A stretch of DNA of 50,269 nt from a virus. A model generated the notes under the pieces. That model made no database searches. It was not told the DNA's origin and saw only the letters and a program-made list of their open reading frames with translations. Position numbers and translations under genes: made by a program. Location of the stretch: positions 64,001 to 114,269 of the IMG/VR virus record IMGVR_UViG_3300020158_000005, one strand, 5' to 3'. Below are positions 3,942-36,338 of the stretch, piece by piece (the first letter of the stretch is position 1; each line of letters starts with the position of its first letter).

Positions 3942-6179
3942 ATGTCATATTTCACACAAGTTAGTTATTCAGATACAGGTTCTTTAGATGCGTTCTCAAG
4001 ATTAAGAACATCTAATCCTGAAACTTTATTTGCTGTTCAATCTCAATATGATACCAATCCTATAGAGATGGAAGGAGGATTTATAGGTACAGGAACTGCT
4101 GCTCCAACTTATAGCACTTCTACAAGAATGGTTGCATTGACAGCTACTGCTGGTACAGGAAGTGTATTTTATCAATCCTATCAATATAGTTCATATCAAC
4201 CAGGTAAAGCATTAAAACATGGAGAACCTGTTTTAACTGTTAATGGGTGGGTTAACATTGAAGATATAAAACTTGGAGATACTATCTTTGATGGACTAGG
4301 TAAAGAAACTAAAGTTATAGGTGTTTTTCCACAAGGAGAAAGAAAAATCTATAGAATCACTTTTGATGATGGTACTCATGTAGATTGTGATGGAGAACAT
4401 CTTTGGAAAACCATTGTAAGATGGGAAGGTAAAGCAGGTCAAGAAAGAGTATTAACTACTAATCAAATGTTAGACGAACATGGGGAAGTATCATCATCTT
4501 ATAACAGATGGAGAATACCTGCATCACCAGTACTTGAAATAACTGAAAAACCTGTTCCTATAGATGCTTATACATTAGGTGCTATTTTAGGAGATGGCAG
4601 TATAGATAAAAAATCTAGTTTTGTTCAATTTACTACAGCAGATTTAGAGATACTTTCTTATTTAAAGTGTGATATTAGTAAGTACGAGGCTAAGTATCAA
4701 TATGGGTTATTAGGTTTAGCAGAAAGTATTAGAACTTTAAAATTAGATAATACTAATTTTTTAACTAAATTTGTTCCTAACGAATATTTATATAACTCAA
4801 AAGAGATTAGATTAGCAATTTTACAGGGACTGATGGATACAGATGGTACTGTAGATAAAGTAGATGGCACTACTGAATACAACTCAGCCAGTAAACAATT
4901 AGCGGAAGATGTTGCATTTTTAGTTCGTTCATTAGGTGGGCAAGCAAAAATAAAAATAAAAGAAGCTAGTTATAAGAATGAAGATGGGGATAAGGTTAAA
5001 TGTTCTGACAGTTATAGAGTAAGAGTAATAATGCCTATTTGTCCATTTAAACTAGAGAGAAAATCATTCTATTGGAAGCCTAGAACTAGAATTTCTTTTG
5101 ATAGATATATTCATTCTATTAAAGAGCTTGGGGATTACCAAGCAACTTGTATAAGAGTAGAATCAGAAGACCATACATTCTTAACTAGAAATAATATAGT
5201 TACTCACAATAGTCAATTTATAGCTTTAACAGGTGTAGTAGGTACAGGTGTTGCAGGAGCTGTAGTTGATTATGGATATGGTGATAGTTTGAATGGTATA
5301 TTTTTAAGACAAAGTGGAACTACTATGCAAGTAGTACAAAGAAGTAATACTTCAGGAGCTGTAGTAGAAACAGTTATATCTCAATCTGCTTGGAATTTAG
5401 ATAAAATGGATGGTACAGGTAACTCAGGAATCACTTTTGATGTTACAAAAGCATTTATTCTTATAATGGATTTACAATTCCTTGGAATGGGTAGAGTAAG
5501 ATTTGGATTTGATATAAATGGAGTAGTATATTATTTTCATCAAATATTTAATGCTAACGTACTTGCTGTACCTTATATGCAACAAGCTACACTTCCTATC
5601 AGTGTTACCTTGACTACTACTGCTACTATAGCTACTAAAACATGTTATTTTAAATGTGCTACAGTACAGTCTGAAGGTGGTAGTTTACAAAACTTTGGGT
5701 ATAACTTTGCTACCCCTGAAGGAACTGTAACTGCAGGTAATGGAGCTAGAACATCTTTATTAGCTCTTAGACCATTAACAACATTTAATGGAATTCCTAA
5801 TAGGTCTCAAATTATTCTTGGAAATCTAGCAATAGCTGTTACAGGAACATCTCCTATATTCTGGGAATTATGTACAGGTGCTGTTTATACAGTAGCTCCT
5901 ACATTTGCTAGTGTAAATGCTGCTAACTCTTCTACACAATATGGTACAGGTGGAACATTTGGTAATTTAACAACAGGTCAGGTAATAGCTTCAGGATATG
6001 TAACAGGTTCAGGAGCAGGAGCAGCAGGAGTATCAAGTCCTACTATTTCACTACATAATCCAATTGCTCTTAATAGAGCAGGTGCTGTAACAGCTTTAGG
6101 TACACTTAGTTTACTTGTATCAGGAATAGGAGGTAATAGTGCAACTAGAGCATCATTTAACTTTGCAGAAATACGTTGA
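3942..6179 (+). CDS. Virion structural protein interrupted by an intein
   Basis: The 745-aa precursor has three parts: an N-extein (residues 1-89), an intein (90-423) and a C-extein (424-745). Joining the exteins restores SYQPGK-SQFIALTG, a junction that resembles a family of beta-rich phage virion proteins with a conserved YQxGKSQ motif followed by W-N-x-D-K-x-D-G and G-x-GRVRFGF. Those last two motifs are also present here. The mature protein would be about 411 aa. Its neighbours are fibres on the same strand, so a tail or baseplate-adjacent structural role is likely. The extein family assignment is from memory of motif pattern, not a search. Confidence 0.7.
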   Translation: MSYFTQVSYSDTGSLDAFSRLRTSNPETLFAVQSQYDTNPIEMEGGFIGTGTAAPTYSTSTRMVALTATAGTGSVFYQSYQYSSYQPGKALKHGEPVLTVNGWVNIEDIKLGDTIFDGLGKETKVIGVFPQGERKIYRITFDDGTHVDCDGEHLWKTIVRWEGKAGQERVLTTNQMLDEHGEVSSSYNRWRIPASPVLEITEKPVPIDAYTLGAILGDGSIDKKSSFVQFTTADLEILSYLKCDISKYEAKYQYGLLGLAESIRTLKLDNTNFLTKFVPNEYLYNSKEIRLAILQGLMDTDGTVDKVDGTTEYNSASKQLAEDVAFLVRSLGGQAKIKIKEASYKNEDGDKVKCSDSYRVRVIMPICPFKLERKSFYWKPRTRISFDRYIHSIKELGDYQATCIRVESEDHTFLTRNNIVTHNSQFIALTGVVGTGVAGAVVDYGYGDSLNGIFLRQSGTTMQVVQRSNTSGAVVETVISQSAWNLDKMDGTGNSGITFDVTKAFILIMDLQFLGMGRVRFGFDINGVVYYFHQIFNANVLAVPYMQQATLPISVTLTTTATIATKTCYFKCATVQSEGGSLQNFGYNFATPEGTVTAGNGARTSLLALRPLTTFNGIPNRSQIILGNLAIAVTGTSPIFWELCTGAVYTVAPTFASVNAANSSTQYGTGGTFGNLTTGQVIASGYVTGSGAGAAGVSSPTISLHNPIALNRAGAVTALGTLSLLVSGIGGNSATRASFNFAEIR
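4209..5210 (+). mobile_element. Intein with LAGLIDADG endonuclease domain (Ala1 type)
   Basis: This intein covers residues 90-423 of the structural protein. The splicing block A starts at Ala-Leu-Lys-His-Gly-Glu-Pro-Val, so the first residue is Ala rather than Cys or Ser. Block B is visible as DGTHVDCDGEHLW. Two dodecapeptide endonuclease motifs are present: LGAILGDGS (about residue 210) and LAILQGLMDTDG (about 289). The end reads HTFLTRNNIVTHN followed by Ser+1, a canonical His-Asn/Ser C-junction. Ala1 inteins are known to splice by direct attack of the +1 nucleophile on the N-junction. The endonuclease motifs keep their acidic residues, so it may be active. Confidence 0.88.
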
Positions 6180-18268: not shown

Positions 18269-21200
18269 TTATAATCTATCCTGAATTGAACAAGAATTTC
18301 CACTGCAGGCAATGGAAGCATAATCGCTAACATCTTTATATTCAGGCTTAGTAAGAATCTTTGAAAGGTCTACTTCTTTAAATTGTTTATCAATGGTTTC
18401 CCATTTATGCAGAATATGCACATCTTTTAAACAATATACCATATTATCTATGTTATTCTTAAAATAGTTCTTAGCAAATTTCTTAGCTCTATCAATCCAA
18501 TATTTCTTCAATAACACTTGTTCTCTTGTTCCTGCAATAGGTTCCGTTTTGTCCTTTACAGATTTACAAGCTTGCCAAAGATTACCATTAAAATAATGTA
18601 ACCCATCTACAATAAGTCCCGAAGCAAATAAAGCTCCTGTACCATATTTAGCAATAATTTCTTCTAATGTAACTAGTTCTGTTAGGGGGGCTTGATTCCA
18701 CTCTCTACTACCAAAGTCACTTAAGAAAGAAATAGCTGTAAAAGCATCTTTATTATCCCAAATATAGTCAGCACATTTTTCCTTATCTCCTTCTCCTAAC
18801 ACTACTGTACAGGATACATTATGATTAATACCTCTATATCCACATAATTCAGGAACAGTTCCTGGCATTACCCAGTTTTCTTGTACTAATTTAATGTATT
18901 CTAGATGTTTTACACCCAGTACATCTTTCTTTAATAAGGCATCTTTATTATTCGCTACAGGAACATATACAACATAATCAGTTTTACTGTCACTATGTAC
19001 ACTTTCCTCTATCATATAAGGTCTATTTTCGGCTAACCACTTAGCTACGGTGTTTTCTTTGTTAATTTGCATCACTCTAAAATAGTTTCTAGCTTCTTCA
19101 GCAGAAATACCACCTACAGTCATAGCAATAACACTAGAATTACCTCCAGGTTTAACACAAGTAGTACGAGCAGCTTGATTGATTCCTATCATATCAGCTA
19201 CTATTTTGTTCGTATTCACTACTAATGCAGCACCTTCTCTTAGCCATTCTGGGTTAAATAGCTTAGGATTATTCATCCAACCTATTACAGAAATTCCTAA
19301 TAAAGCTTCTTTCTCAAAGATTTTTTCACTCACCTCTCCTAAATAAGGGAAAGACGTATAACCTGCTTGACAAGTTCCTAATATAGCAGAATGAACACAA
19401 GCTTTCAAAAATAACTCTTTTGTAGTACATTTTTCAGCTACAATTTCATTTAAATTACATTGCTTAGTTAAAACATTATTAAATACTCCTTGGTGTAATT
19501 CTGTTTCTTCAAAACAATATGAGTTATGTAAACCTGGGAGTAACTCTATAGTATCTATAATTTGTACTTTTCCTTTTTTAGTTGGTTCTTCTTTTGATAA
19601 CTCTCCTTTTGAACACCATAGCTCGGAACAGTCTGAAATTTGTAAATACCATATATCTTTATTTCTAATAGCATAGTTAGTTTTTACTCCTTTTTCTTGC
19701 ATTAAATTAACAGAAGAATCTATCCCTATTTTTGTTAGCAACAACTGGCAATCTCTAATTTTACTTTCTTCCCCATAAATTCTCAGCTTGCCATTATAAG
19801 TAATTGTACCGTCAGTATCTACCCACCCAGCAATAAAATTAATAATACTCTGTTTATTCCAAGTAAACACTTTAGATGGTAAACCTTCTTCATATTTTAA
19901 AGAAACCGAAAAATCTCTATCTAATTTATCAAAAGTTACATTATAATAATCTCCTGATTTTGTGGTGTTTAACACTTCACTTTTTTTACCACATATAAAA
20001 GGGAAGTCTAAATGAAAATTAGATTTATAAACAGAGGCAAAAGGTAGTCTTGATTTACCATTTTGATAATTTCTACACGTACCGTCACCTAATAGAAAAC
20101 CATAATCGTAAGCATATTCTTCTAAGACACCATCAGTATATATAATATTAGATTTAGGTACTGAAACTTTATATTTTTCAGTATTATTCAATAATTCAGA
20201 TAGTTTTAACTCTCTGTAGTTTTCTTCAAATCTATTTTTAACCAAAAACTTATGATTTTCTGTACAATCAAGATAGGACCCATCTGAAAAACCCACTCTA
20301 TATAGATTTCTATTAACACCTGTTAATACAGGCTTAACTTTTGACCATTTAACCCCATTCCAAATCTCTATTTCTTCCTTATTTTCCGCAACTTCTCCAA
20401 TAACTCTAATTCCATCTCTAGTTATAAGTTTTGTGTTATATTCAACACATCCCTGTACTCCAAATAAATCTTCATTAACCTTTGTAAACTCTTGAATATC
20501 ATCATAATGTATTTTACTTAAATCCCCATCATAAAGAATAGGTAGTTTACTAATTTCAAAACAAGGATTGAACATATCAAACCAAGAGTTAGCAAATACG
20601 AATCCAATATCATTTTGTCCACCATTTAGATTTACAAGATAATCAAACTGTTCTTTTGTTACTAAATTACGTATTAATATAACGCTATTATTGGTTCTTT
20701 CTCTTTGTTTGTTTTCAGAATACCAATTCCCTGTTTTAGCTAATATCATTTCCTCGTCATTAGGGTCTACGATGAAATCCAAAGCAGCTCTTCTCACGCC
20801 ACCACTAAGTACAGCATTAGACAAATGGCAAATAACATCTCCAACTACAATAGGTCTTAATTCATTTCCTTCTGTAATCATCCAATTATCTAACACTTGC
20901 TCTATTTTTTCAAGAGCATTTTTAAGGGGTTCATAACCAGGGGCTTTAAATCCCCCAGAGATAAATGTACCTTTTTCACGTATACCGCTACCATCGAACT
21001 TAATCTTATACCCTGTATATTCAGGAAAAGGGGCTTTATCTACAAAATAAGAAGACATTAATACACCTGCTGCATCTGCCCATCCTTCAATACTATCTTC
21101 AATTACAAATGTTTTTGTACCTAATAATCTAGGCTGAATCTTTGAAATATTCTTAACAAAAGGAATTAATAAACCTACACCTACTCCACAACCATTTAAA

Positions 21201-21523
21201 GCTAGATAGAACACTTCTTGAAAAACTCTGTTTCTTGAAGCATGCGTAGAAGTACAATTGTACATCCTAAGATTACTCCTTTCTATTTGTTTATATCTAT
21301 ACTGTAAATTCCTTTGTGAAGCTAAAATAAGCATATCACCTAAAGAGTCTTCTACTTCGTTTAGTAATACATTTAATTCTTCATTTTGATACTTTATTCT
21401 ATGCCCATTAATAATGTCCTTAGAAGCATCTTTCCATGTTTCATACCTACCTTCATCCATCCATTTAAAATAATCTGAATGTAATTTTAGGTCAGATAGA
21501 AACTTTTTTCCTTTGTTTGTCAT
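18269..21523 (-). CDS. nrdJ: Class II (B12-dependent) ribonucleotide reductase with intein
   Basis: Without the intein (residues 359-688) the enzyme is 754 aa, close to the monomeric Lactobacillus leichmannii enzyme. Visible catalytic residues are Cys90 (RMYNC, first redox Cys), Cys321 in FNPCFEI (thiyl-radical Cys and Glu), Cys689 in CNLNEI (second redox Cys) and the C-terminal pair CSGNSC (1073/1078) that re-reduces the site. It converts ribonucleotides to deoxyribonucleotides using adenosylcobalamin and needs no oxygen. A consensus promoter lies 36 bases upstream and a terminator follows, so it is a single-gene unit. No cobalamin riboswitch fits in the short leader. Whether it prefers di- or triphosphates cannot be read here. 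Confidence 0.93.
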   Translation of the reverse strand: MTNKGKKFLSDLKLHSDYFKWMDEGRYETWKDASKDIINGHRIKYQNEELNVLLNEVEDSLGDMLILASQRNLQYRYKQIERSNLRMYNCTSTHASRNRVFQEVFYLALNGCGVGVGLLIPFVKNISKIQPRLLGTKTFVIEDSIEGWADAAGVLMSSYFVDKAPFPEYTGYKIKFDGSGIREKGTFISGGFKAPGYEPLKNALEKIEQVLDNWMITEGNELRPIVVGDVICHLSNAVLSGGVRRAALDFIVDPNDEEMILAKTGNWYSENKQRERTNNSVILIRNLVTKEQFDYLVNLNGGQNDIGFVFANSWFDMFNPCFEISKLPILYDGDLSKIHYDDIQEFTKVNEDLFGVQGCVEYNTKLITRDGIRVIGEVAENKEEIEIWNGVKWSKVKPVLTGVNRNLYRVGFSDGSYLDCTENHKFLVKNRFEENYRELKLSELLNNTEKYKVSVPKSNIIYTDGVLEEYAYDYGFLLGDGTCRNYQNGKSRLPFASVYKSNFHLDFPFICGKKSEVLNTTKSGDYYNVTFDKLDRDFSVSLKYEEGLPSKVFTWNKQSIINFIAGWVDTDGTITYNGKLRIYGEESKIRDCQLLLTKIGIDSSVNLMQEKGVKTNYAIRNKDIWYLQISDCSELWCSKGELSKEEPTKKGKVQIIDTIELLPGLHNSYCFEETELHQGVFNNVLTKQCNLNEIVAEKCTTKELFLKACVHSAILGTCQAGYTSFPYLGEVSEKIFEKEALLGISVIGWMNNPKLFNPEWLREGAALVVNTNKIVADMIGINQAARTTCVKPGGNSSVIAMTVGGISAEEARNYFRVMQINKENTVAKWLAENRPYMIEESVHSDSKTDYVVYVPVANNKDALLKKDVLGVKHLEYIKLVQENWVMPGTVPELCGYRGINHNVSCTVVLGEGDKEKCADYIWDNKDAFTAISFLSDFGSREWNQAPLTELVTLEEIIAKYGTGALFASGLIVDGLHYFNGNLWQACKSVKDKTEPIAGTREQVLLKKYWIDRAKKFAKNYFKNNIDNMVYCLKDVHILHKWETIDKQFKEVDLSKILTKPEYKDVSDYASIACSGNSCSIQDRL
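19460..20449 (-). mobile_element. Intein in ribonucleotide reductase, Gln C-terminus
   Basis: The intein covers residues 359-688. Block A is CVEYNTKLITRDG, block B contains FSDGSYLDCTENHKF, and endonuclease motifs are YGFLLGDGTC and FIAGWVDTDGT. The C-terminal part reads SYCFEETELHQGVFNNVLTKQ followed by Cys+1. The last residue is Gln, not Asn, and the penultimate is Lys, not His. Gln-terminated inteins are known. The +1 Cys is also a catalytic Cys of the host enzyme, so only a spliced product should be active. Confidence 0.85.
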
Positions 21524-29934: not shown

Positions 29935-31140
29935 TCATGCAACTCCATCCCTTAGGTCTTCTGCGGTCCTCCGTCTCGTTTCAAAATCCTGCACTATTTC
30001 TGCATCAGAATAATCTGCCTCATAATCATCTTCCTCATATTCATCATCTTCTTCTGTTTGAAGAGCTTCTGAAACAAATGAAGGGTCTTCAAATTTAGCT
30101 TTAAATTGGGAAATAATTTGAGAAATTTCTTTCTTTCTGCCTATAATAGATTTTTCTTTAAGTTCATTTCCTCCTATATAACAATAATCCTTCATAAATT
30201 CAAAAGGAACATAATATATTTGAGCTTTTGTAGCTAGAAGATGTGGTTCCACATATTTCTTATACATTGTTCTAAAAGCTTTGTGAGGATAAGAAGTACC
30301 TTGTAAATCTTTATCTACTAGAAATATCACTTTAGTCATATCTATAGTGCCATGTAATAATATATGTAGTTTTTGATACATATAATTTTCTGGTAATACT
30401 ATAGGAAGTACAACAGGTAATATTTCAGCAGATGTATTTCTAAATAAAGAATAACTACCCATACTAGCAGAGAAAGTACGCATATTTATTGTAGTTAATC
30501 CTTCTTTGAAAACATTTTCTGTTATATTATCATAACGATGTATCCAACCACTATTTTCTAATAAAAGTGGATTTTCCTGTCCAAGATATGCATTTACATA
30601 TGTATCTACAGAACCTTTTATAGAATCATGCCCACTACCATCTGTAATTAAGTTATAAATAAAATAACTTAATGGATTTTCTTTATCCTTTAAAGTAGCT
30701 TTAAACATATCTACATGTTCTCCTGTTAAAGACCTTCCTTGTCTACTATCTATATATTTTTCATTTATATAGTGGTATCTTTTATTAAAAAGTTGGGGAG
30801 CCACAGATAAATAAACTAAGGGAATAAACTCAGAAAAAGGACACATAAAATACCTACTAGCACTACTTAGTCCTCTTGAGTTAGTACCTAATTTAAAAAT
30901 ACTTGCAGGAGCTTCAGCTCCATTATCTTTTCCTTCCCAAAAAGGAGGAATGATTTTAGGTTTTACAGTACGTTTCCTTTTTACAGGTGCTGTTGTAGAT
31001 ATAGTAATAGAAGGATTATCAGTAGTTTCTGCAGGAATTTCTTGCATTCTTGCTGCATAGTCCCATGCGGCATCTATAGTCATAGTTTCTCCAATACTAG
31101 CTTGTGGCAACGATTCCGTTCTCACTTGTAATTGTCTCAT
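29935..31140 (-). CDS. Unknown acidic-tailed protein of the ubiquitin-like cluster
   Basis: The 401-aa protein (or 382 aa from the ATG at 31083, just after the E1 stop) has a polar, basic N-terminal linker (APVKRKRTVKPKIIPP), a central alpha/beta domain (~80-345; pieces EILPVVLPIVLPENY and TKVIFLVDKDLQG) and an extremely acidic tail (TEEDDEYEEDDYEADYSD). I find no catalytic motif. It overlaps the E1-like gene by 44 bases or lies 13 bases after it, and is followed by the polymerase. Position makes it a candidate target, adaptor or additional factor of the Ub-like system. The assignment to that system is inference. Confidence 0.6.
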   Translation of the reverse strand: MRQLQVRTESLPQASIGETMTIDAAWDYAARMQEIPAETTDNPSITISTTAPVKRKRTVKPKIIPPFWEGKDNGAEAPASIFKLGTNSRGLSSASRYFMCPFSEFIPLVYLSVAPQLFNKRYHYINEKYIDSRQGRSLTGEHVDMFKATLKDKENPLSYFIYNLITDGSGHDSIKGSVDTYVNAYLGQENPLLLENSGWIHRYDNITENVFKEGLTTINMRTFSASMGSYSLFRNTSAEILPVVLPIVLPENYMYQKLHILLHGTIDMTKVIFLVDKDLQGTSYPHKAFRTMYKKYVEPHLLATKAQIYYVPFEFMKDYCYIGGNELKEKSIIGRKKEISQIISQFKAKFEDPSFVSEALQTEEDDEYEEDDYEADYSDAEIVQDFETRRRTAEDLRDGVA

Positions 31141-31870
31141 TTTGATTTAATTTAATTTGTTCTACAGATTCAGTTTTATAATCTAAGAATGGTCCAAAGA
31201 ACCTTTGATGGAATGGAACTTCTTTAAATTCAGCACCCATTTTCTTGTTTGCCAACCAGTTACAGAAGGTAGCTGTAATAAAAGTTGCAATACCCATAGC
31301 TACAAAAGTAGTTTGTTTCATGGTACAATCAAGTTCTTCTATCTCACTATCATCAAATAACCAATTTTTATATTCTTCAATTTGTTCAGGATGGTCCCCT
31401 TGAACAACAAACACTTCACATAATTCTCCTGCCATTCTACCGTCTATAAATAAACAATCTTCATATTCAGCAGGGTCTTTAGCAAGTGTATGATTCTCCC
31501 ATTCTAAGAAAATTTCTTTACGGGCTTTCATATTATCTAAACCAGTAATACAAATATCCATCATACCAAAGTCAAGAGAATACATTTCTTTTATAGGAGT
31601 AAGATTATTAACGCAACCAAATTGATTACAAATTTCTGCTACAGCACTCACTTTACTCTTACCAATATCAGATTGTCTATACATTTGACCACCTTGTACA
31701 TTAGTTTCATCTACATTATCTCCATCAATAATATAAATTTCATGCATAATTCTACTTAAAGATAGGCAAGTCCAGCTTCCAATACCGCCAGCTCCTATCA
31801 TCATTATTTCTTTTTGCTGGTCAGCCCAATCAAATCCCGACCATCTTTTACCTTGAATTAATTTGTTCAT
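31097..31870 (-). CDS. ThiF/E1-like adenylating enzyme
   Basis: The 257-aa protein has an adenylation Rossmann core: MMIGAGGIGSW (residues 23-33, G-x-G-x-x-G), strand IYIIDGD (46-51) with the ribose-binding Asp, and the downstream ETNVQGGQMYRQSDIGKSK (Arg/Lys contacts to ATP). ICITGLDNMKARK (107-118) corresponds to the conserved D-N motif. Cys182 in LDCTMKQTTFVA is the best candidate for a thioester Cys. E1-like enzymes activate the C-terminus of a ubiquitin-like protein as an adenylate. Its neighbours are a JAB peptidase, an E2-like protein and two Ubls, so it is the activating enzyme of that set. Confidence 0.88.
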   Translation of the reverse strand: MNKLIQGKRWSGFDWADQQKEIMMIGAGGIGSWTCLSLSRIMHEIYIIDGDNVDETNVQGGQMYRQSDIGKSKVSAVAEICNQFGCVNNLTPIKEMYSLDFGMMDICITGLDNMKARKEIFLEWENHTLAKDPAEYEDCLFIDGRMAGELCEVFVVQGDHPEQIEEYKNWLFDDSEIEELDCTMKQTTFVAMGIATFITATFCNWLANKKMGAEFKEVPFHQRFFGPFLDYKTESVEQIKLNQNETITSENGIVATS

Positions 31871-31883
31871 TTTTTAATATTTT

Positions 31884-31916
31884 AAAAAGGGATGTATATT
31901 TCAACACCCCTTTTTT
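31884..31916 (-). terminator. Hairpin between the JAB and E1 genes
   Basis: Arms AAAAAGGG and CCCTTTTT, extended by TGT/ACA after one mismatch, form a stem followed by T on both strands. Genes on either side are 13-6 bases away, so it may only attenuate readthrough. Confidence 0.6.
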
Positions 31917-31921
31917 GTTAA

Positions 31922-32884
31922 TTAATCTACCATCACATGTCCTAATACAGTAGGTCCGTCACTTACAGCTTCTTCAGTTTCAGCTAATATCATATAAGTC
32001 AGTTCTTCCACAATTCCTTTGATAAGTCTATTGTAAGTGAAAGATTTTAAATGTTTCTCTAAAAGTTCTAACACTTGAATATAATCCCAAATACTTGCTT
32101 GTGGATACATAATTCCAAAATGCTCTTCAAAAGCTATGGAAAACTCAGCTAGATAGCTATCTAATTGTTTCTTAGTTTTAAGAAGATTATTCTTTTTAAT
32201 TAAGTTCTCTACAGGAGAATCTGGAGTCATTAAGTAGTTTTCTTCCACAAAAGAATTCAAAACACCATAAGCATCTTCTTTAGACATTAACAATGTCAAA
32301 GTGCTTTCTTGGGGTTTATATTTCTCATCTACATATTTTCTCCACTCTTCATCAGTCATATCCATGATGTCTTTATCTCTTTTTTGAGATTTAGTACCAT
32401 ATCCATAGTAGTCATCATCATTCAATCCTAATTCTCCTTGTTCCCATTTAGAATTCGTACTATCTTTGCCAGTATAGCTACTACCCATGCTCCCATATTT
32501 TCCACCATATCCACCATATACTCCATTATAAAATCCAGGATAGACAGGTTTAGCATCATCAATAGCTTTCTTAACAGCAGTGTAGCGAGCAGCAAAAGCT
32601 TCTTCTACAGGAACTACTGCATTTTCAAATTGTATTTTACAATCCATCACTACTAATACATCCTTAGATTTTTCTCCACCTAATACAAGGGGCTCAAATC
32701 CATCTAAATTATTGGCAAATTCCAGAGTAGTATCTGGTTTACCATTTCTTGTAGCTTTAAATGCTACTTTAGCTACGTATTCTCCTTTGAAATTTACTAT
32801 AAGCATAAGCAAATAGTTACTCAATACACCCCTATCTTCTAATTGTGACCAATCGGTTCCACTAAAGAAAGCACTCATAGAATG
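31922..32884 (-). CDS. JAB/JAMM peptidase, exon 2
   Basis: This exon begins with CAT TCT ATG, giving HSMSAFFSGTDWSQLED. Joined to exon 1 (HIHTH) it completes the metalloprotease motif H-x-H-x7-S-x2-D, with Ser129 and Asp132 of the joined protein. The next ~60 residues finish the JAB fold (YLLMLIVNFKGEYVAKVAF). The remainder is a Tyr/Gly-rich linker (YPGFYNGVYGGYGGKYGSM) and a long helical C-terminal domain absent from minimal JAB proteins. The joined protein is about 441 aa. Read alone from ATG 32878 this part would lack the zinc ligands. The protein would cleave or process Ubl conjugates or precursors. Confidence 0.85.
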   Translation of the reverse strand, partial: HSMSAFFSGTDWSQLEDRGVLSNYLLMLIVNFKGEYVAKVAFKATRNGKPDTTLEFANNLDGFEPLVLGGEKSKDVLVVMDCKIQFENAVVPVEEAFAARYTAVKKAIDDAKPVYPGFYNGVYGGYGGKYGSMGSSYTGKDSTNSKWEQGELGLNDDDYYGYGTKSQKRDKDIMDMTDEEWRKYVDEKYKPQESTLTLLMSKEDAYGVLNSFVEENYLMTPDSPVENLIKKNNLLKTKKQLDSYLAEFSIAFEEHFGIMYPQASIWDYIQVLELLEKHLKSFTYNRLIKGIVEELTYMILAETEEAVSDGPTVLGHVMVD

Positions 32885-32929
32885 CAGTTACGTTATTGGG
32901 AATTTTTTAATTATTTCCCACTTTATTTT

Positions 32930-32959
32930 TTGTTATTTAAAATTAATTATTTATATTTG
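32930..32959 (+). promoter_or_regulatory. Promoter of the intron-borne endonuclease
   Basis: TTG (32930-32932), 19 bases and TATATTTG (32952-32959) match the Bacteroidota consensus and are oriented toward the plus-strand endonuclease at 32980, opposite to the host gene. Confidence 0.75.
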
Positions 32960-32979
32960 CTCTCACCATAAAATAAATT

Positions 32980-33621
32980 ATGAAGAGACCTTTTCAAGGA
33001 AATATTAGATATTTCCAAAATTGTGATACCCCTATTAAAGCTTATTTTCTTGGTTTTATAGCTGCAGATGGTTGTCTATTAAGTAATGGAAAAAATTCCA
33101 TTTCTCTTTCAATAACATTATCTGAAGTAGATAGAAATCTTTTAAACAAGTTAAAAGAAGAAATAGGTTGTGAACATAGAATTTATAATATAAGAGGTAA
33201 AATGACACATAATAAAGACAAAGAAAAATATCATTGTCGTTTTCAATTGTGTAATAAACTACTTATTTCAGATTTAATGAGTTATGGATTCACAGAACGT
33301 AAATCTATAACTATGCCTAATATACTACAAAATATACCTAAAGAATTTAGAGATTCTTTTATTTTGGGATATTTTGATGGAGATGGTAGTATTTCTTACA
33401 ATATAGCAAGTAAACAACATGTTATCTCTTTTCGAGGAACAGAAGAATTTCTACAAAGTTTTGTAGAAACACTTCAGTTTGAAAAGTATAGGTTAATTAA
33501 AGATAAACAAAAGAATTGCTTTACTCTAACTGCTTGGCGTAAATCTGATATTCAAAAATTCAAACAAATATATAATAATAAAGAATTTTATTTAACTAGA
33601 AAATTTATTAAATTTCCTTAA
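32980..33621 (+). CDS. LAGLIDADG homing endonuclease inside the intron (antisense)
   Basis: The 213-aa protein has two LAGLIDADG motifs: IKAYFLGFIAADGCLL (~residues 17-32) and FILGYFDGDGSISY (~126-139), both with the metal-binding Asp. It is a single-chain homing enzyme that would cut the uninterrupted JAB gene and promote intron spread. It is the only rightward gene in the 14.2-50.3 kb block and has its own promoter. Intron-borne endonucleases are usually on the sense strand, so the orientation is unusual. Confidence 0.88.
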   Translation: MKRPFQGNIRYFQNCDTPIKAYFLGFIAADGCLLSNGKNSISLSITLSEVDRNLLNKLKEEIGCEHRIYNIRGKMTHNKDKEKYHCRFQLCNKLLISDLMSYGFTERKSITMPNILQNIPKEFRDSFILGYFDGDGSISYNIASKQHVISFRGTEEFLQSFVETLQFEKYRLIKDKQKNCFTLTAWRKSDIQKFKQIYNNKEFYLTRKFIKFP

Positions 33622-33836
33622 AAATCAATAAAGACCAGACTATATCATCTTCCTATTTCACTATAGGAAGTCGGGTTCTCGTGTTAGCTTCATCACCGTT
33701 CTGGTGGTATGCTATTAGTCGTTGCACCTTCATTCTATTCCTAGAAAGCTCGGCTCAGGATTGGAGCTTTTTAACTCTTTCCCTGAATTCTCCCAATTGT
33801 TAATATACATTACTGTATAAGAGCACCATTATGTCA

Positions 33837-34199
33837 ATGCGTGTGAATATGATGATTCTTTTGAGTTCCGTCCATTAATCCAGGATAAGCTTCATAAAGC
33901 TCAATAATATCGGCAGATTTAAATCCACCCTTATCTACTTCATATCCTGTAAATCCAGAAGTTCCAATATCTACTAAATAAATATCTTCACAGATGATAG
34001 TCCATTCATCTAAATCATTAATTGTTTTAATTTCGGAAGTGATAAGTTCACCACTCCATTCAATAGCTCCACACTGTTTGTGTAGATAATCAATTTGTTT
34101 TTTTAATTTCTCTGTAATAATCACTGTAGGTTTATTACTTAATTCTAGTCTATCCAAACACTGCTTGGTAACGTAGGGTTTTTGCACTTTGGTATCCAT
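33837..34199 (-). CDS. JAB/JAMM peptidase, exon 1
   Basis: Residues 1-121 hold the first half of the JAB fold: PTVIITEKLKKQIDYLHKQ, then IEWSGELI with the catalytic Glu47 and finally NHHIHTH with the zinc ligands His119 and His121. Without splicing the frame runs one codon further into a TGA (33836-33834). The start at 34199 lies inside the end of the E2-like gene by 50 bases. This is the only in-frame ATG before the fold starts. Homologues act as ubiquitin-like isopeptidases or precursor-processing enzymes. See exon 2 for the rest. Confidence 0.85.
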
Positions 34200-35304
34200 A
34201 ATCTAAATTAAATTTGTTAAGTTCTTCTTTTAATAATTGGTTATAATAATTTATCACATCTCCTGAAAGAGGAATAGAAGTTTTATCTTCTATTTCATCC
34301 ACGCTTTCATCATAAATTTTTGCTCCTATTTTTTCTCCTTTAAAATTAAGAGATAGTCTTTTTACATTTTCTTGTCTCCTTTTTAATAATTCTTTTATTC
34401 TATCTCTTGTAATTCCTAAATCCCTCACCTTACTATTTTCTTTATAGAATTCTAAAAGAGTAGGATGGTGAGCAATCACTTTTATTCCTTCATTATATTG
34501 GAATACTTCTTCAGGAATATTTGGTAATAGTCTATAAAATTCTACATTTGCTTGAGCAGAATCACTACTTAAGCCATACCCTATACCTGCCATTTTTATA
34601 TATGGACCGCCTTCTAAGCTCTCCCATATTAAATAATTCTCTAAACTAAAGAATAATAAATACCAACCTTCTGGAGTAGGTTCTATTAATAGGCTATTTA
34701 TTATCAGCCCAAATTCACTGCTACCGAGGCAAAATCCTCTATATTCACATAAACAACCACTTGGTAAATGAGAATGTCCATAATTAGAAGCGTATTCTTT
34801 TAAATGTAAAGTGGTTCTAGTTCCATAAAAGTTTATACTCACTTTATGTACATCTTCAACAGTACGTGGATGAATACAAAATTTAACATATAAATCTTTA
34901 ATTACATGAGAGTCCTCTCTGGAATTAGTGATGGTGAATTCAGGGAAATGTATAATAATGTCAAAAGATAAACTACCTGTTTTAACACAACCTACTCTTT
35001 CTGCCCCAAATACTTCATTAGCTATATCCTGAATACTATGTGCATCCAGAGAATATTTACCCCATAATTCCTTTGCTTCAGCTATTCTTATTTTTTCTTT
35101 TTCTTCATCGATAAATCTGTCAATATCAGAAACTTTAAAAGACCATTGTTGAGTTCTTACATCTGTAAAAACCACATCATCCCTTGAAATTTTTTCTATG
35201 GTCATAATTTGACCTAAAAACATATCCATTTGACCCCCATCAGCCCATTCTGGTGGTCTATTACTTGTTAATATTACTTGGTCCCCTTCTCTAAATTCTA
35301 ACAT
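34150..35304 (-). CDS. E2-like conjugating protein with N-terminal SH3-like domain
   Basis: Residues ~1-65 resemble an SH3/MIB-type barrel (EFREGDQVILTSNRPPEW, then GGQMDMFLGQIMTI). Residues ~105-235 fit an E2/UBC-like sandwich: FDIIIHFPEFTITN, KVSINFYGTRTTLHL, then YGHSHLPSG and RGFCLGSSEFG. The H-x-H followed by C-L-G resembles the pattern around the active Cys of prokaryotic E2-like families, making Cys192 the candidate. A basic helical C-terminus (~300-384) follows. Directly downstream are the JAB, E1 and acidic-tail genes, and upstream the two Ubls. The fold call is by motif and context. A structure prediction would be decisive. Confidence 0.62.
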   Translation of the reverse strand: MLEFREGDQVILTSNRPPEWADGGQMDMFLGQIMTIEKISRDDVVFTDVRTQQWSFKVSDIDRFIDEEKEKIRIAEAKELWGKYSLDAHSIQDIANEVFGAERVGCVKTGSLSFDIIIHFPEFTITNSREDSHVIKDLYVKFCIHPRTVEDVHKVSINFYGTRTTLHLKEYASNYGHSHLPSGCLCEYRGFCLGSSEFGLIINSLLIEPTPEGWYLLFFSLENYLIWESLEGGPYIKMAGIGYGLSSDSAQANVEFYRLLPNIPEEVFQYNEGIKVIAHHPTLLEFYKENSKVRDLGITRDRIKELLKRRQENVKRLSLNFKGEKIGAKIYDESVDEIEDKTSIPLSGDVINYYNQLLKEELNKFNLDYGYQSAKTLRYQAVFG

Positions 35305-35320
35305 ATATAAAATTTTTTAA

Positions 35321-35342
35321 AAAGGGGGATTTCTCCCCCTTT
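35321..35342 (-). terminator. Hairpin between Ubl 1 and the E2-like gene
   Basis: Nine-base perfect arms AAAGGGGGA / TCCCCCTTT with loop TTTC. A strong stem directly after the Ubl stop should reduce transcription into the enzyme genes. Confidence 0.8.
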
Positions 35343-35346
35343 ATGA

Positions 35347-35820
35347 TTAACTACGCAATTTCTTAGCTTCAGCCAAAGCTGCTGCTAATTCTTCATCCAC
35401 TACAGGAGCTACTACCTCTGCAACAGCTATTGTAGCTCTAGGTGCTGTGAAGAAACTTTCTACACTGCTTGTTAGAGCTGCTTTTAAAGCTGCAGTCTCC
35501 TGAGCACTTGCTATACGAGCAGTTGCTTTAATTGTTGCTGCAATAGCAGTACCTACAGCATTAGCATCACTATCAGTGATACCTGCCTTATTCTTAGTAG
35601 CAATGATGAACACATTGAAATCTTCTGTAGGAAGAATGCTATCATCTCCTCTAAGAGTGATGTTACCTGGTTTTACAACCACTTCCACTCCATCACCACC
35701 ATTGTAAATACCTGCGAAAGCACTATTTGCTTTCAAATCTCCGAAGGTTACACCTGCGAAATCATTAATTCTTACTGCTGCATTTGTTTTAGCACTTGCT
35801 ACGATTACTTTTCTAGACAT
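35347..35820 (-). CDS. Ubiquitin-like protein, copy 1 (157 aa)
   Basis: After MSRKVIVASAKTNAA the core reads GVTFGDLKAN, then GVEVVVKPGNITLRGDDSIL and PTEDFNVFIIATKNKAG (to ~residue 78). The TFGDLK, LRGDDS-LP and DFNVF-ATKNKAG pattern is that of beta-grasp Ub-like proteins found with E1/E2/JAB genes. The following ~80 residues are Ala-rich helices ending AEAKKLRS. There is no C-terminal Gly-Gly, so if it is conjugated, either processing exposes another end or the mechanism differs. It is a paralogue of the next gene. Confidence 0.72.
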   Translation of the reverse strand: MSRKVIVASAKTNAAVRINDFAGVTFGDLKANSAFAGIYNGGDGVEVVVKPGNITLRGDDSILPTEDFNVFIIATKNKAGITDSDANAVGTAIAATIKATARIASAQETAALKAALTSSVESFFTAPRATIAVAEVVAPVVDEELAAALAEAKKLRS

Positions 35821-35846
35821 TTTATTTATTTTTTATTGTAAATGAA

Positions 35847-35873
35847 AAAAGGGAGCCAATATAGCTCCCTTTT
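35847..35873 (-). terminator. Hairpin between the two Ubl genes
   Basis: Ten-base perfect arms AAAAGGGAGC / GCTCCCTTTT with loop CAATATA, in the 71-base gap between the Ubl genes. Confidence 0.8.
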
Positions 35874-35891
35874 GTTAAAATTTGTTAAATA

Positions 35892-36338
35892 TTATAAACT
35901 CTTAGCTTCAGCTAGAGCTGCTCCCAATTCAATGCAATCTGCATTTCCACCACAATTATCTACTACAGGAATAGATTTTTTGTAACTCTCAATAAAACCA
36001 ATCAAAGCATCTCTAAGAGATGTTAAATTAGCTCCTACAATTTCATCAATTACTTCATTAATTGCTTCTTCAACTTCATAAGCAACATCAGAGCTATCCA
36101 ATCCTGCTTTGTTCTTTGTAGCTACTAAGAACACGTTAAAATCACCTACTGGCAATACACTATCATCACCACGTAAAGTTACGTTTCCTGGTTTAACGAT
36201 AGCTTCTACACCATCACCATTGCCATAAATCCCTGCAAAAATAGGGTCGGCTTTCAAATCACCGAAAGTTGTTCCACTGAATTCAGTACGTGCTGCTGCA
36301 TTAGTTTTTGCACTGGCAATAATTACTTTTCTAGACAT
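35892..36338 (-). CDS. Ubiquitin-like protein, copy 2 (148 aa)
   Basis: The first ~80 residues are closely related to copy 1 (MSRKVIIASAKTNAA, TFGDLKADPIFAGIYG, TLRGDDSVLPVGDFNVF). The C-terminal half differs: acidic helices (EVEEAINEVIDEIV) and a small Cys-containing element VVDNCGGNADCIELG before ALAEAKSL. The final ~8 residues are again like copy 1 (ALAEAK), which suggests a selected C-terminal peptide. As first gene of the cluster with a nearby promoter it should be the most abundant product. Confidence 0.72.
   Translation of the reverse strand: MSRKVIIASAKTNAAARTEFSGTTFGDLKADPIFAGIYGNGDGVEAIVKPGNVTLRGDDSVLPVGDFNVFLVATKNKAGLDSSDVAYEVEEAINEVIDEIVGANLTSLRDALIGFIESYKKSIPVVDNCGGNADCIELGAALAEAKSL

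Follow-up and report, generated by a model that had tools for sequence, protein, structure and literature searches.

A candidate PRTRC-like ubiquitin-like conjugation cassette in the replication block of crAss-like phages, with a group I intron in its JAMM gene

Why would a phage carry a set of ubiquitin-like conjugation genes among the genes that copy its DNA? Bacterial ubiquitin-like conjugation has been studied mainly as antiphage defence (PMC10449767, PMC12355090); here, phages themselves keep the whole machinery at a fixed position in the replication block. The window that we analysed, a 50,269-nucleotide stretch of a crAss-like phage, contains on its minus strand (36338-31097) two genes for ubiquitin-like proteins (Ubls), followed by a probable E2 gene and the genes of a JAMM peptidase and a ThiF/E1 enzyme. 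A preliminary description had listed these genes, together with an acidic-tailed protein, as a consecutive and co-oriented set. Having checked coordinates and families, we find the set to be real, with the corrections given below.

35892..36338, minus strand: Ubl1, predicted ubiquitin-like precursor (AF2 beta-grasp, Foldseek, conserved Gly79/Pro63)
35847..35873, minus strand: terminator-like hairpin after Ubl1, 12 bp, GGGAGC..GCTCCC plus T run (scan; position conserved in relatives)
35347..35820, minus strand: Ubl2, tandem paralogue of Ubl1 (alignment)
35325..35339, minus strand: weaker terminator-like hairpin after Ubl2 (scan)
34150..35304, minus strand: E2-like protein, 384 aa, core 88-226 (AF2 topology; invariant His179 and Cys192)
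33837..34199, minus strand: JAMM exon 1 (iterated HMM 1.8e-30; splice model)
32885..33836, minus strand: group I intron, 952 nt (RF00028; homologous introns in relatives)
32980..33621, plus strand: LAGLIDADG homing endonuclease gene in the intron (PF14528 1.2e-10; phrog_4645 9e-45)
31922..32884, minus strand: JAMM exon 2, HSMSAFFSGTD... (spliced protein matches JAMM HMM)
31097..31870, minus strand: E1-like ThiF-fold activating enzyme, 257 aa (PF00899 1.2e-16, above cut-off)
29935..31140, minus strand: 401-aa protein with acidic tail (no family)

The gene list and family profile searches of the window place the cassette among DNA-copying genes, with UDG and primase upstream, and the same primase and UDG setting is present in crAss001, cr111, cr126, cr128, FpV4 and Dulem virus 41. 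A PolA gene (29837-27978) adjoins the cassette end, after the 29935-31140 gene. The polymerase does follow in the window, as described earlier, but it is not a constant neighbour: several genes separate it from the cassette in crAss001. Co-orientation likewise applies to the cassette genes, all on the minus strand, but not to the LAGLIDADG gene inside the block. The acidic-tailed protein, which occupies the place of crAss001 gp75, has no family in profile searches and no detectable relatives in other loci; we rejected it as a gp75-family homologue because hhalign against that family fails. No E3-like gene was identified.

Structure prediction within 34150-36338 yields a beta-grasp for Ubl1 (residues 1-73; pLDDT 84, and 93-97 over residues 1-70), and the model matches ubiquitin, ISG15 and MoaD with a Foldseek probability of about 1.0. 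The grasp ends in an invariant Gly79 (KNKAG), followed by a 69-residue helical C-terminal extension; Gly79 and Pro63 are each kept in 57/57 aligned copies. By predicted fold and the conserved glycine at its end, Ubl1 is a ubiquitin-like protein, a putative protein modifier. Ubl2 is 53% identical to Ubl1 and has the same K-x-K-A-G end and a 77-residue extension, bearing out the claimed pair; no further Ubl matches occur in the whole 114-kb record. Informative families for Ubl were absent from Pfam, NCBIfam, PHROGs and PADLOC, and PDB sequence profiles returned no match for Ubl, E2 or JAMM. Because a tail of 53-206 residues follows the conserved Gly in every copy, a situation that a processing peptidase resolves, Ubl probably starts as a precursor that JAMM trims.

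The E1 is a ThiF-fold enzyme by its motifs, in agreement with the earlier assignment. It contains a Rossmann adenylation GxGGxG motif (GAGGIGS), the acidic and Arg residues D49/D51, D112 and R117, and the candidate thioester Cys182 (CTMKQT). Cys182, which lies in C-[ST]-x-K-Q-T, D112 and R117 are invariant (82/82). Searches of the PDB return NEDD8-E1 at 1e-9 as well as UBA5 and SUMO E1s, and ThiF and MoeB models also match. With the window E1 as a single query, no relative turned up among viral contigs; a 4-sequence E1 alignment used as query did find relatives.

Our assignment of the 35304-34150 product as a probable E2 is the weakest link of the main model. It draws on the predicted topology, on a His/Cys pair that never varies and on weak structural matches. 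The AF2 model of residues 88-226 (pLDDT mostly above 90) shows a UBC-like topology, in which a helix, a four-strand meander, HxH, Cys and two helices follow one another in UBC order, and His179 and Cys192 are each found in 56/56 copies. Foldseek returned no significant match (best bacterial E2 8tz0, E 0.55), with bacterial E2s at ranks 2, 13 and 47 and Atg3 at rank 8 (weak) among 507 matches. The protein has no Pfam match and no informative family in NCBIfam, PHROGs or PADLOC, and a Prok-E2_B search of its own genome and 149 genomes of the L086 phylum gave no match in the phage. Of the SH3 plus E2-like architecture proposed earlier, the E2-like part is retained and the SH3 part is not, residues 1-54 having a pLDDT of about 41-51.

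The JAMM gene called previously (34199-33837) has the expected residues but is exon 1 only. This exon carries the catalytic Glu in EWSG, shares 50 nt with the E2 gene and ends in HHIHTH followed by a stop; exon 2 lies at 32884-31922. The E + H-x-H-x7-S-x2-D motif is intact only once the exons are joined, and the spliced protein (441 aa) matches over residues 9-419, at 1.9e-53, a JAMM HMM iterated from seeds without the window sequence. All ungapped copies but one in the alignment of relatives keep the E/H/H/S/D residues. The window exons match no Pfam or NCBIfam profile, and crAss001 JAMM scores 20.4 bits against PF14464 (cut-off 25) and 12-14 bits against TIGR03735 (cut-off 102). We keep JAMM as the functional reading because the motif residues are present, though these profile cut-offs are not reached.

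The sequence that splits the gene, inside H-x-H-x7-S-x2-D, is a group I intron by its RF00028 score (60.6 bits at 33616-33846, minus strand; gathering score 50; E 2.9e-15), and its self-splicing is putative. The match came from a short-stretch scan, the Rfam fast filters having passed the intron over. The intron has a terminal G, its catalytic core in the 5' part and a readable U.G pair at the 5' splice site (GCAU with GUGC). L031, L039, L023, L067 and Fpv1 have homologous introns, inserted at this site or close to it; in relatives four insertion positions are used, all within about 27 nt of the JAMM motif. Rfam did not call the insertions of Fpv1 and L022; we judge them to be introns as well, since their sequences are related, they carry LAGLIDADG genes and the exons continue exactly across them. 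Fpv1 and the intron-free FpV4 offer a natural contrast for the effect of a split JAMM active site.

Is the cassette a chance assembly of this genome? Wherever all four genes could be read, in 71/71 loci, Ubl, E2, JAMM and E1 stand in one order and on one strand; the proposed co-occurrence and the placement of a phage-encoded set in the replication block are supported in about 70 related loci. The cassette occurs in dozens of relatives, sampled from the gut and from the environment, including crAss-like phages (Steigviridae, with the cultured crAss001), the Flavobacterium phages FpV4 and Fpv1, and uncultured relatives; genes are missing only at contig ends or in the case of three distant E1s. 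The proteins are about 20-40% identical across relatives, and active-site residues are nonetheless kept. E2 and JAMM reading frames overlap in 69/70 loci (median 68 nt), which points to translational coupling. The cassette is not essential to the wider crAss-like group, since 100 of 125 kb read of the related Leptolyngbya phage Lbo-JY46 contain none. GenBank labels its genes in crAss001 and FpV4 'thiamine biosynthesis protein', 'metalloprotease' or 'hypothetical'. Among open-licence papers we found none linking crAss-like phages to ubiquitin and no description of the system; ThiF, ubiquitin and JAB are all absent from the main text of Yutin et al. 2021.

A scan of the region found 14 terminator-like sites (3.1 expected). 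Such a hairpin follows the Ubl gene in 27/51 loci compared with 13/294 comparable other gaps (p = 9e-17, with related loci treated as independent), which suggests that Ubl is made in excess over its enzymes. DapZ and SSRC38 Rfam matches were below cut-off and are explained by a terminator-like hairpin.

We consider it probable that the cassette encodes a reversible PRTRC-like ubiquitin-like conjugation cascade acting on replication proteins, with two expression controls. We infer its chemical steps, targets and role from the genes, their synteny, the invariant residues, the predicted Ubl fold, the intron and the hairpins. Ubl would be made as a precursor, which JAMM would cut just behind the invariant Gly that closes the beta-grasp. 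E1 would adenylate this Gly and then carry Ubl on Cys182; E2 would receive it on Cys192 and join it to target proteins, from which JAMM could remove it again. The cascade may work in early infection on genome-replication proteins of phage or host. Partial termination downstream of the Ubl gene would let the tag exceed its enzymes, and in the window phage active JAMM would appear only once the intron excises itself from the mRNA. The broader proposal, that a complete cascade tagging replication proteins is a fixture of the DNA replication module in Steigviridae crAss-like and related Bacteroidota phages, with JAMM as a hotspot for self-splicing introns tying tag processing to RNA splicing, is tentative and leans slightly to the doubtful side. 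The cultured carriers crAss001 and FpV4 make a direct search for conjugates in infected cells possible.

Bil defence uses the same enzyme classes as the phage cassette. Since antiviral systems share these classes (PMC10449767; PMC12355090) and a lone JAMM could serve as a deconjugase, the phage set might disturb host Ubl antiviral systems (Bil, CBASS Cap2/Cap3), for example by putting a wrong tag on host targets or by stripping host Ubls. We regard such counter-defence as unlikely: the full set always stands together in the replication block and is not scattered in accessory genes, a decoy could do without an E1, E2 and precursor Ubl of its own, and PADLOC gives no close Bil or Cap match. Slightly less probable still is a reading of the 'E2' as another alpha/beta protein that works with Ubl, E1 and JAMM, with Ubl attached to one partner only, for instance the product of the gene that follows E1. 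The sub-significant Foldseek scores and the missing profile link between phage E2 and PRTRC-B would fit this; the UBC-order topology with H179 and C192, the E2 and Atg3 structures among the Foldseek matches and a gene slot matching that of the E2 in a PRTRC plasmid do not, and the protein downstream of E1 is not conserved.

JAMM processing of sulfur-carrier Ubls is known from QbsE/QbsD. Together with the ThiF and MoeB matches of E1 and the thiamine label in GenBank, this counts for a reading in which E1 would thiocarboxylate Ubl like ThiS/MoaD and JAMM would only expose the C-terminal Gly, the product being a sulfur-containing nucleotide or tRNA. This is the least probable of the three, and several points count against it: the cassette always includes an E2-like protein whose His and Cys are invariant, E1 has no rhodanese, the annotations in the cassette neighbourhoods read place no thiamine or sulfur-transfer gene next to E1, and an excess of Ubl via the terminator suits a consumed tag more than a recycled carrier.

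Among cellular systems, the plasmid PRTRC cassette (ParB-related, ThiF-related; operon type 6d of Iyer et al. 2006, PMC1779556) is the closest relative, with scores below the curated cut-offs. In the examples compared, Pseudanabaena plasmid L090 and Marinobacter plasmid L088, a Gly-ended Ubl, E2 (Prok-E2_D), JAB and ThiF are likewise ordered Ubl..E2-JAB-E1 on extrachromosomal DNA, alongside replication or partition genes (SSB, ParB). The JAMM motif HSHH-x-M-x-A-x-F-S-x-T-D is almost identical (VHSHHGMNAYFSDTD in the phage, IHSHNNMATFFSGTD in PRTRC-A; hhalign 87%), and TIGR03735 weakly matches 4/6 JAMMs. Phage E1 aligns with PRTRC ThiF (hhalign 98.5%) and scores 42.7 bits against TIGR03736, below its cut-off of 144.75. 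No hhalign match linked phage Ubl to PRTRC-C or E2 to PRTRC-B, a weak test with PRTRC profiles from only three sequences, and neither a ParB-family gene nor PRTRC proteins D-F were recognised among the cassette neighbours in the window. In the phage E2, H-S-H precedes the Cys; that His is absent from type 6d E2s (PMC1779556). Phage Ubl carries a C-terminal extension, whereas PRTRC-C ends at Gly.

The kinship to Bil suggested earlier was not borne out: among PADLOC Bil profiles BilD alone matched, at 5e-4 and outscored by several E1-E2 fusion models. Bil has Ubl, E2, JAB and E1 in the same order as the phage cassette. Bil (BilA-D) is, however, bacterial and antiphage, whereas the cassette is carried by phages. 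CBASS type II Cap2/Cap3 and 6A-MBL share E1/E2 chemistry and a JAMM-type deconjugase, but Cap2 is an E1-E2 fusion with a CD-NTase as substrate and no beta-grasp Ubl (PMC12355090). Tail assembly in lambda/T1 has a phage Ubl (TAPI) with a conserved Gly and a C-terminal domain, and an adjoining JAB (TAPK, JAB + NlpC) proposed to release it (PMC1779556); it differs in having neither E1 nor E2 and in lying in a tail assembly rather than a replication locus. Some crAss-like groups are rich in group I introns and inteins (PMC7886860), and the intron targets named in the part of that paper considered here do not include JAMM. Compared with those LAGLIDADG-bearing introns, the insertion described here lies in the JAMM catalytic motif, at several positions.

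The window occupies bases 64001-114269 of a virus record of 114,269 bp, and the large terminase of this record (L107:12874-14898) matches that of Leptolyngbya phage Lbo-JY46 (39.7%) and those of crAss-like phages such as Cellulophaga phi17:2. Because of these matches the source is placed, from sequence, among the crAss-like phages broadly defined, with no close tie to any named genus. The record also contains a very large ORF of 4403 aa (L109:6202-19413; PHROG matches only short and C-terminal) and a phage tRNA-Thr (anticodon tgt; window:49259-49332, - strand). Genes on the - strand of the window follow in the transcription order primase, uracil-DNA glycosylase, Ubl1, Ubl2, E2-like, JAMM, E1, an unknown protein and PolA. 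Primase and uracil-DNA glycosylase genes likewise adjoin the cassette in crAss001, cr111, cr126, cr128, FpV4 and Dulem virus 41.

The window E1 retrieved 78 phage records from INPHARED, most of them crAss-like phages of Bacteroides (crAss001 and its relatives; Steigviridae in the records whose taxonomy was looked up) and phages of Flavobacterium psychrophilum, and an E1 alignment query returned 78 IMG/VR loci. The preliminary description had proposed a ubiquitin-like conjugation cluster, and its genes do travel together: profile searches place Ubl-E2-JAMM-E1 in a single order on a single strand in 71 of 71 loci with all four genes readable; exceptions occur where a contig ends and at the three distant E1s of L079, L081 and L082. 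E2 and JAMM reading frames overlap in 69 of 70 loci, and the JAMM and E1 genes almost abut. The cassette is lineage-specific, since none was found within the 100 kb read of Lbo-JY46. In the large virus contigs L081 and L082 the distant E1 adjoins a JAMM motif of the classical type (HTHP...PSG-D). More distant E1s also occur on two MAG contigs from Planctomycetota (L086, L087), and these four contigs possibly represent another type of cassette, viral or cellular. Xanthomonas jumbo phage PhiXhv-15 encodes a related E1 (L101:5001-5696) adjoining topoisomerase genes, with no Ubl, E2 or JAMM of the cassette's family beside it in the stretch read.

Identity among cassette proteins is mostly 20-40%, yet active-site residues are kept. 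The window E1 is a plain ThiF protein (PF00899, 1.2e-16) with NEDD8-activating enzyme as its best PDB matches; Asp-112, Arg-117 and Cys-182 (C-[ST]-x-K-Q-T) are invariant in 82/82 sequences. It lacks the additional N-terminal region of about 140 residues seen in crAss001 gp76 (L002:11539-12696). Sequence searches named no informative family for Ubl and E2-like, and we examined both using alignments from relatives. The proposed Ubl fold was recovered: the AF2 model of Ubl1 is a beta-grasp (pLDDT 93-97, residues 1-70) that Foldseek matches to ubiquitin, ISG15 and MoaD with probability about 1.0, the E-values reaching only 2e-3 to 2e-2 because the domain is small. Pro-63 and Gly-79 are invariant (57/57); Gly-79 lies six residues past the last predicted strand, where ubiquitin carries its terminal glycines, and is followed by 53-206 residues in all 57 proteins. 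We infer that Ubl is a precursor trimmed by JAMM.

His-179 and Cys-192 of E2-like are invariant (56/56; Y-x-H-S-H ... C-[LT]-G-x-G). For the E2-like fold, the AF2 model of residues 88-226 (pLDDT mostly >90) supplied the topology, with helix, four strands, HxH, Cys and two helices in UBC order, but Foldseek with the full model gave no significant match. The top 50 Foldseek hits include the bacterial E2s 8tz0/8tyz (ranks 2, 13 and 47) and Atg3 (rank 8), and in BFVD only phage homologues reach significant E-values. We regard the E2 assignment as probable.

The JAMM serine and aspartate are present in 68/68 sequences, and the glutamate and both histidines in all ungapped copies except one. The JAMM ORF of the preliminary description ends at HHIHTH, and the remainder of the motif begins 952 nt further on. 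When 34199-33837 is fused to 32884-31922, the motif reads HHIHTH-HSMSAFFSGTD without a frame change, and the spliced protein of 441 aa scores 1.9e-53 against a JAMM profile built without the window sequence. A group I intron core lies at 33616-33846 (- strand; RF00028, 60.6 bits, gathering 50), and the 952-nt insert holds a LAGLIDADG gene that runs in the other direction. The last bases of the 5' exon, GCAU, could base-pair with an intronic GUGC to form the expected U.G; the terminal intron base, read directly, is G. Further JAMM genes are interrupted as follows.

Insertions in JAMM genes
L007, L023 and L039 (loci): past the first His; Rfam-positive
L067 (locus): past the first His
L031 (locus): at the window's own site; intron sequence 71% identical to the window's
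L022 (locus): past H-S-H-N-T-M-A
Fpv1 (cultured phage): one residue ahead of the motif

At least eight JAMM genes are thus interrupted, at four positions inside about 27 nt. The cultured phages Fpv1 and FpV4 carry filled and empty forms of the same locus (insert about 1.0 kb; exons 100% identical across 331 nt and 98.8% across 933 nt), with silent changes immediately 3' of the insertion site, as expected after homing. The likely, ordinary cause of this clustering is the preference of homing enzymes for invariant DNA. Even so, intron-bearing phages should need splicing to make active JAMM. Certain crAss-like groups are rich in group I introns (PMC7886860). One relative has a group I intron within its E2-like gene (L008:6210-6441; RF00028, 69.7 bits). 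Elsewhere in the window, the ribonucleotide reductase gene (18269-21523, - strand) seems to contain an intein (LAGLIDADG_3 561-626; Intein_splicing 390-672, under the cut-off), and a virion structural protein (3942-6179, + strand) encloses a LAGLIDADG domain (289-346), probably a further intein or homing insertion.

Terminator-like hairpins follow both window Ubl genes.

Hairpins in the cassette
35873-35847, - strand: terminator-like hairpin 3' of Ubl1
35339-35325, - strand: weaker terminator-like hairpin 3' of Ubl2

A scan of the region found 14 such sites against 3.1 expected. Among relatives, 38 of 67 loci have one after the Ubl gene, compared with 1 of 71 after E1 and 3 of 149 after E2/JAMM. 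With near-identical loci collapsed to one, and with every other gap measuring 15-120 nt in these loci as the comparison, hairpins occur in 27/51 gaps after Ubl versus 13/294 elsewhere (p = 9e-17, odds ratio 24). The p-value is inflated by relatedness of the loci, but hairpin sequences vary from locus to locus. The simplest reading is partial termination, which would make the tag more abundant than the enzymes.

Taken together, our best reading is that JAMM would trim the Ubl precursor beyond Gly-79, that the trimmed Ubl would be conjugated to targets in early infection, and that JAMM would reverse the conjugation. We regard this whole statement as reasonably probable; that the genes form a Ubl conjugation set appears more secure, and action on replication proteins less so.

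Our literature search, with most subscription papers outside its reach, found no account of the phage cassette, and we confine the claim of novelty to the literature searched. Bil, to which the set had been likened, is a poorer fit than PRTRC: a PADLOC search matched only BilD, at 5e-4 and below several E1-E2 fusion models. Type 6d systems, predicted in 2006 as conjugation systems (PMC1779556), correspond in our own reading of gene content to PRTRC. In PRTRC plasmid cassettes the gene order Ubl, E2, JAB, ThiF matches that of the phage cassette; the JAMM motifs are nearly identical (hhalign 87%), the E1s align across 180 columns (hhalign 98.5%), and PRTRC-A is a listed, weak NCBIfam match in four of six phage JAMMs. 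In contrast, the phage proteins fall below family cut-offs, the remaining PRTRC genes are missing, and phage Ubl and E2 give no alignment to their PRTRC counterparts. By analogy, the phage cassette is PRTRC-like in its predicted working, yet we do not class it as PRTRC.
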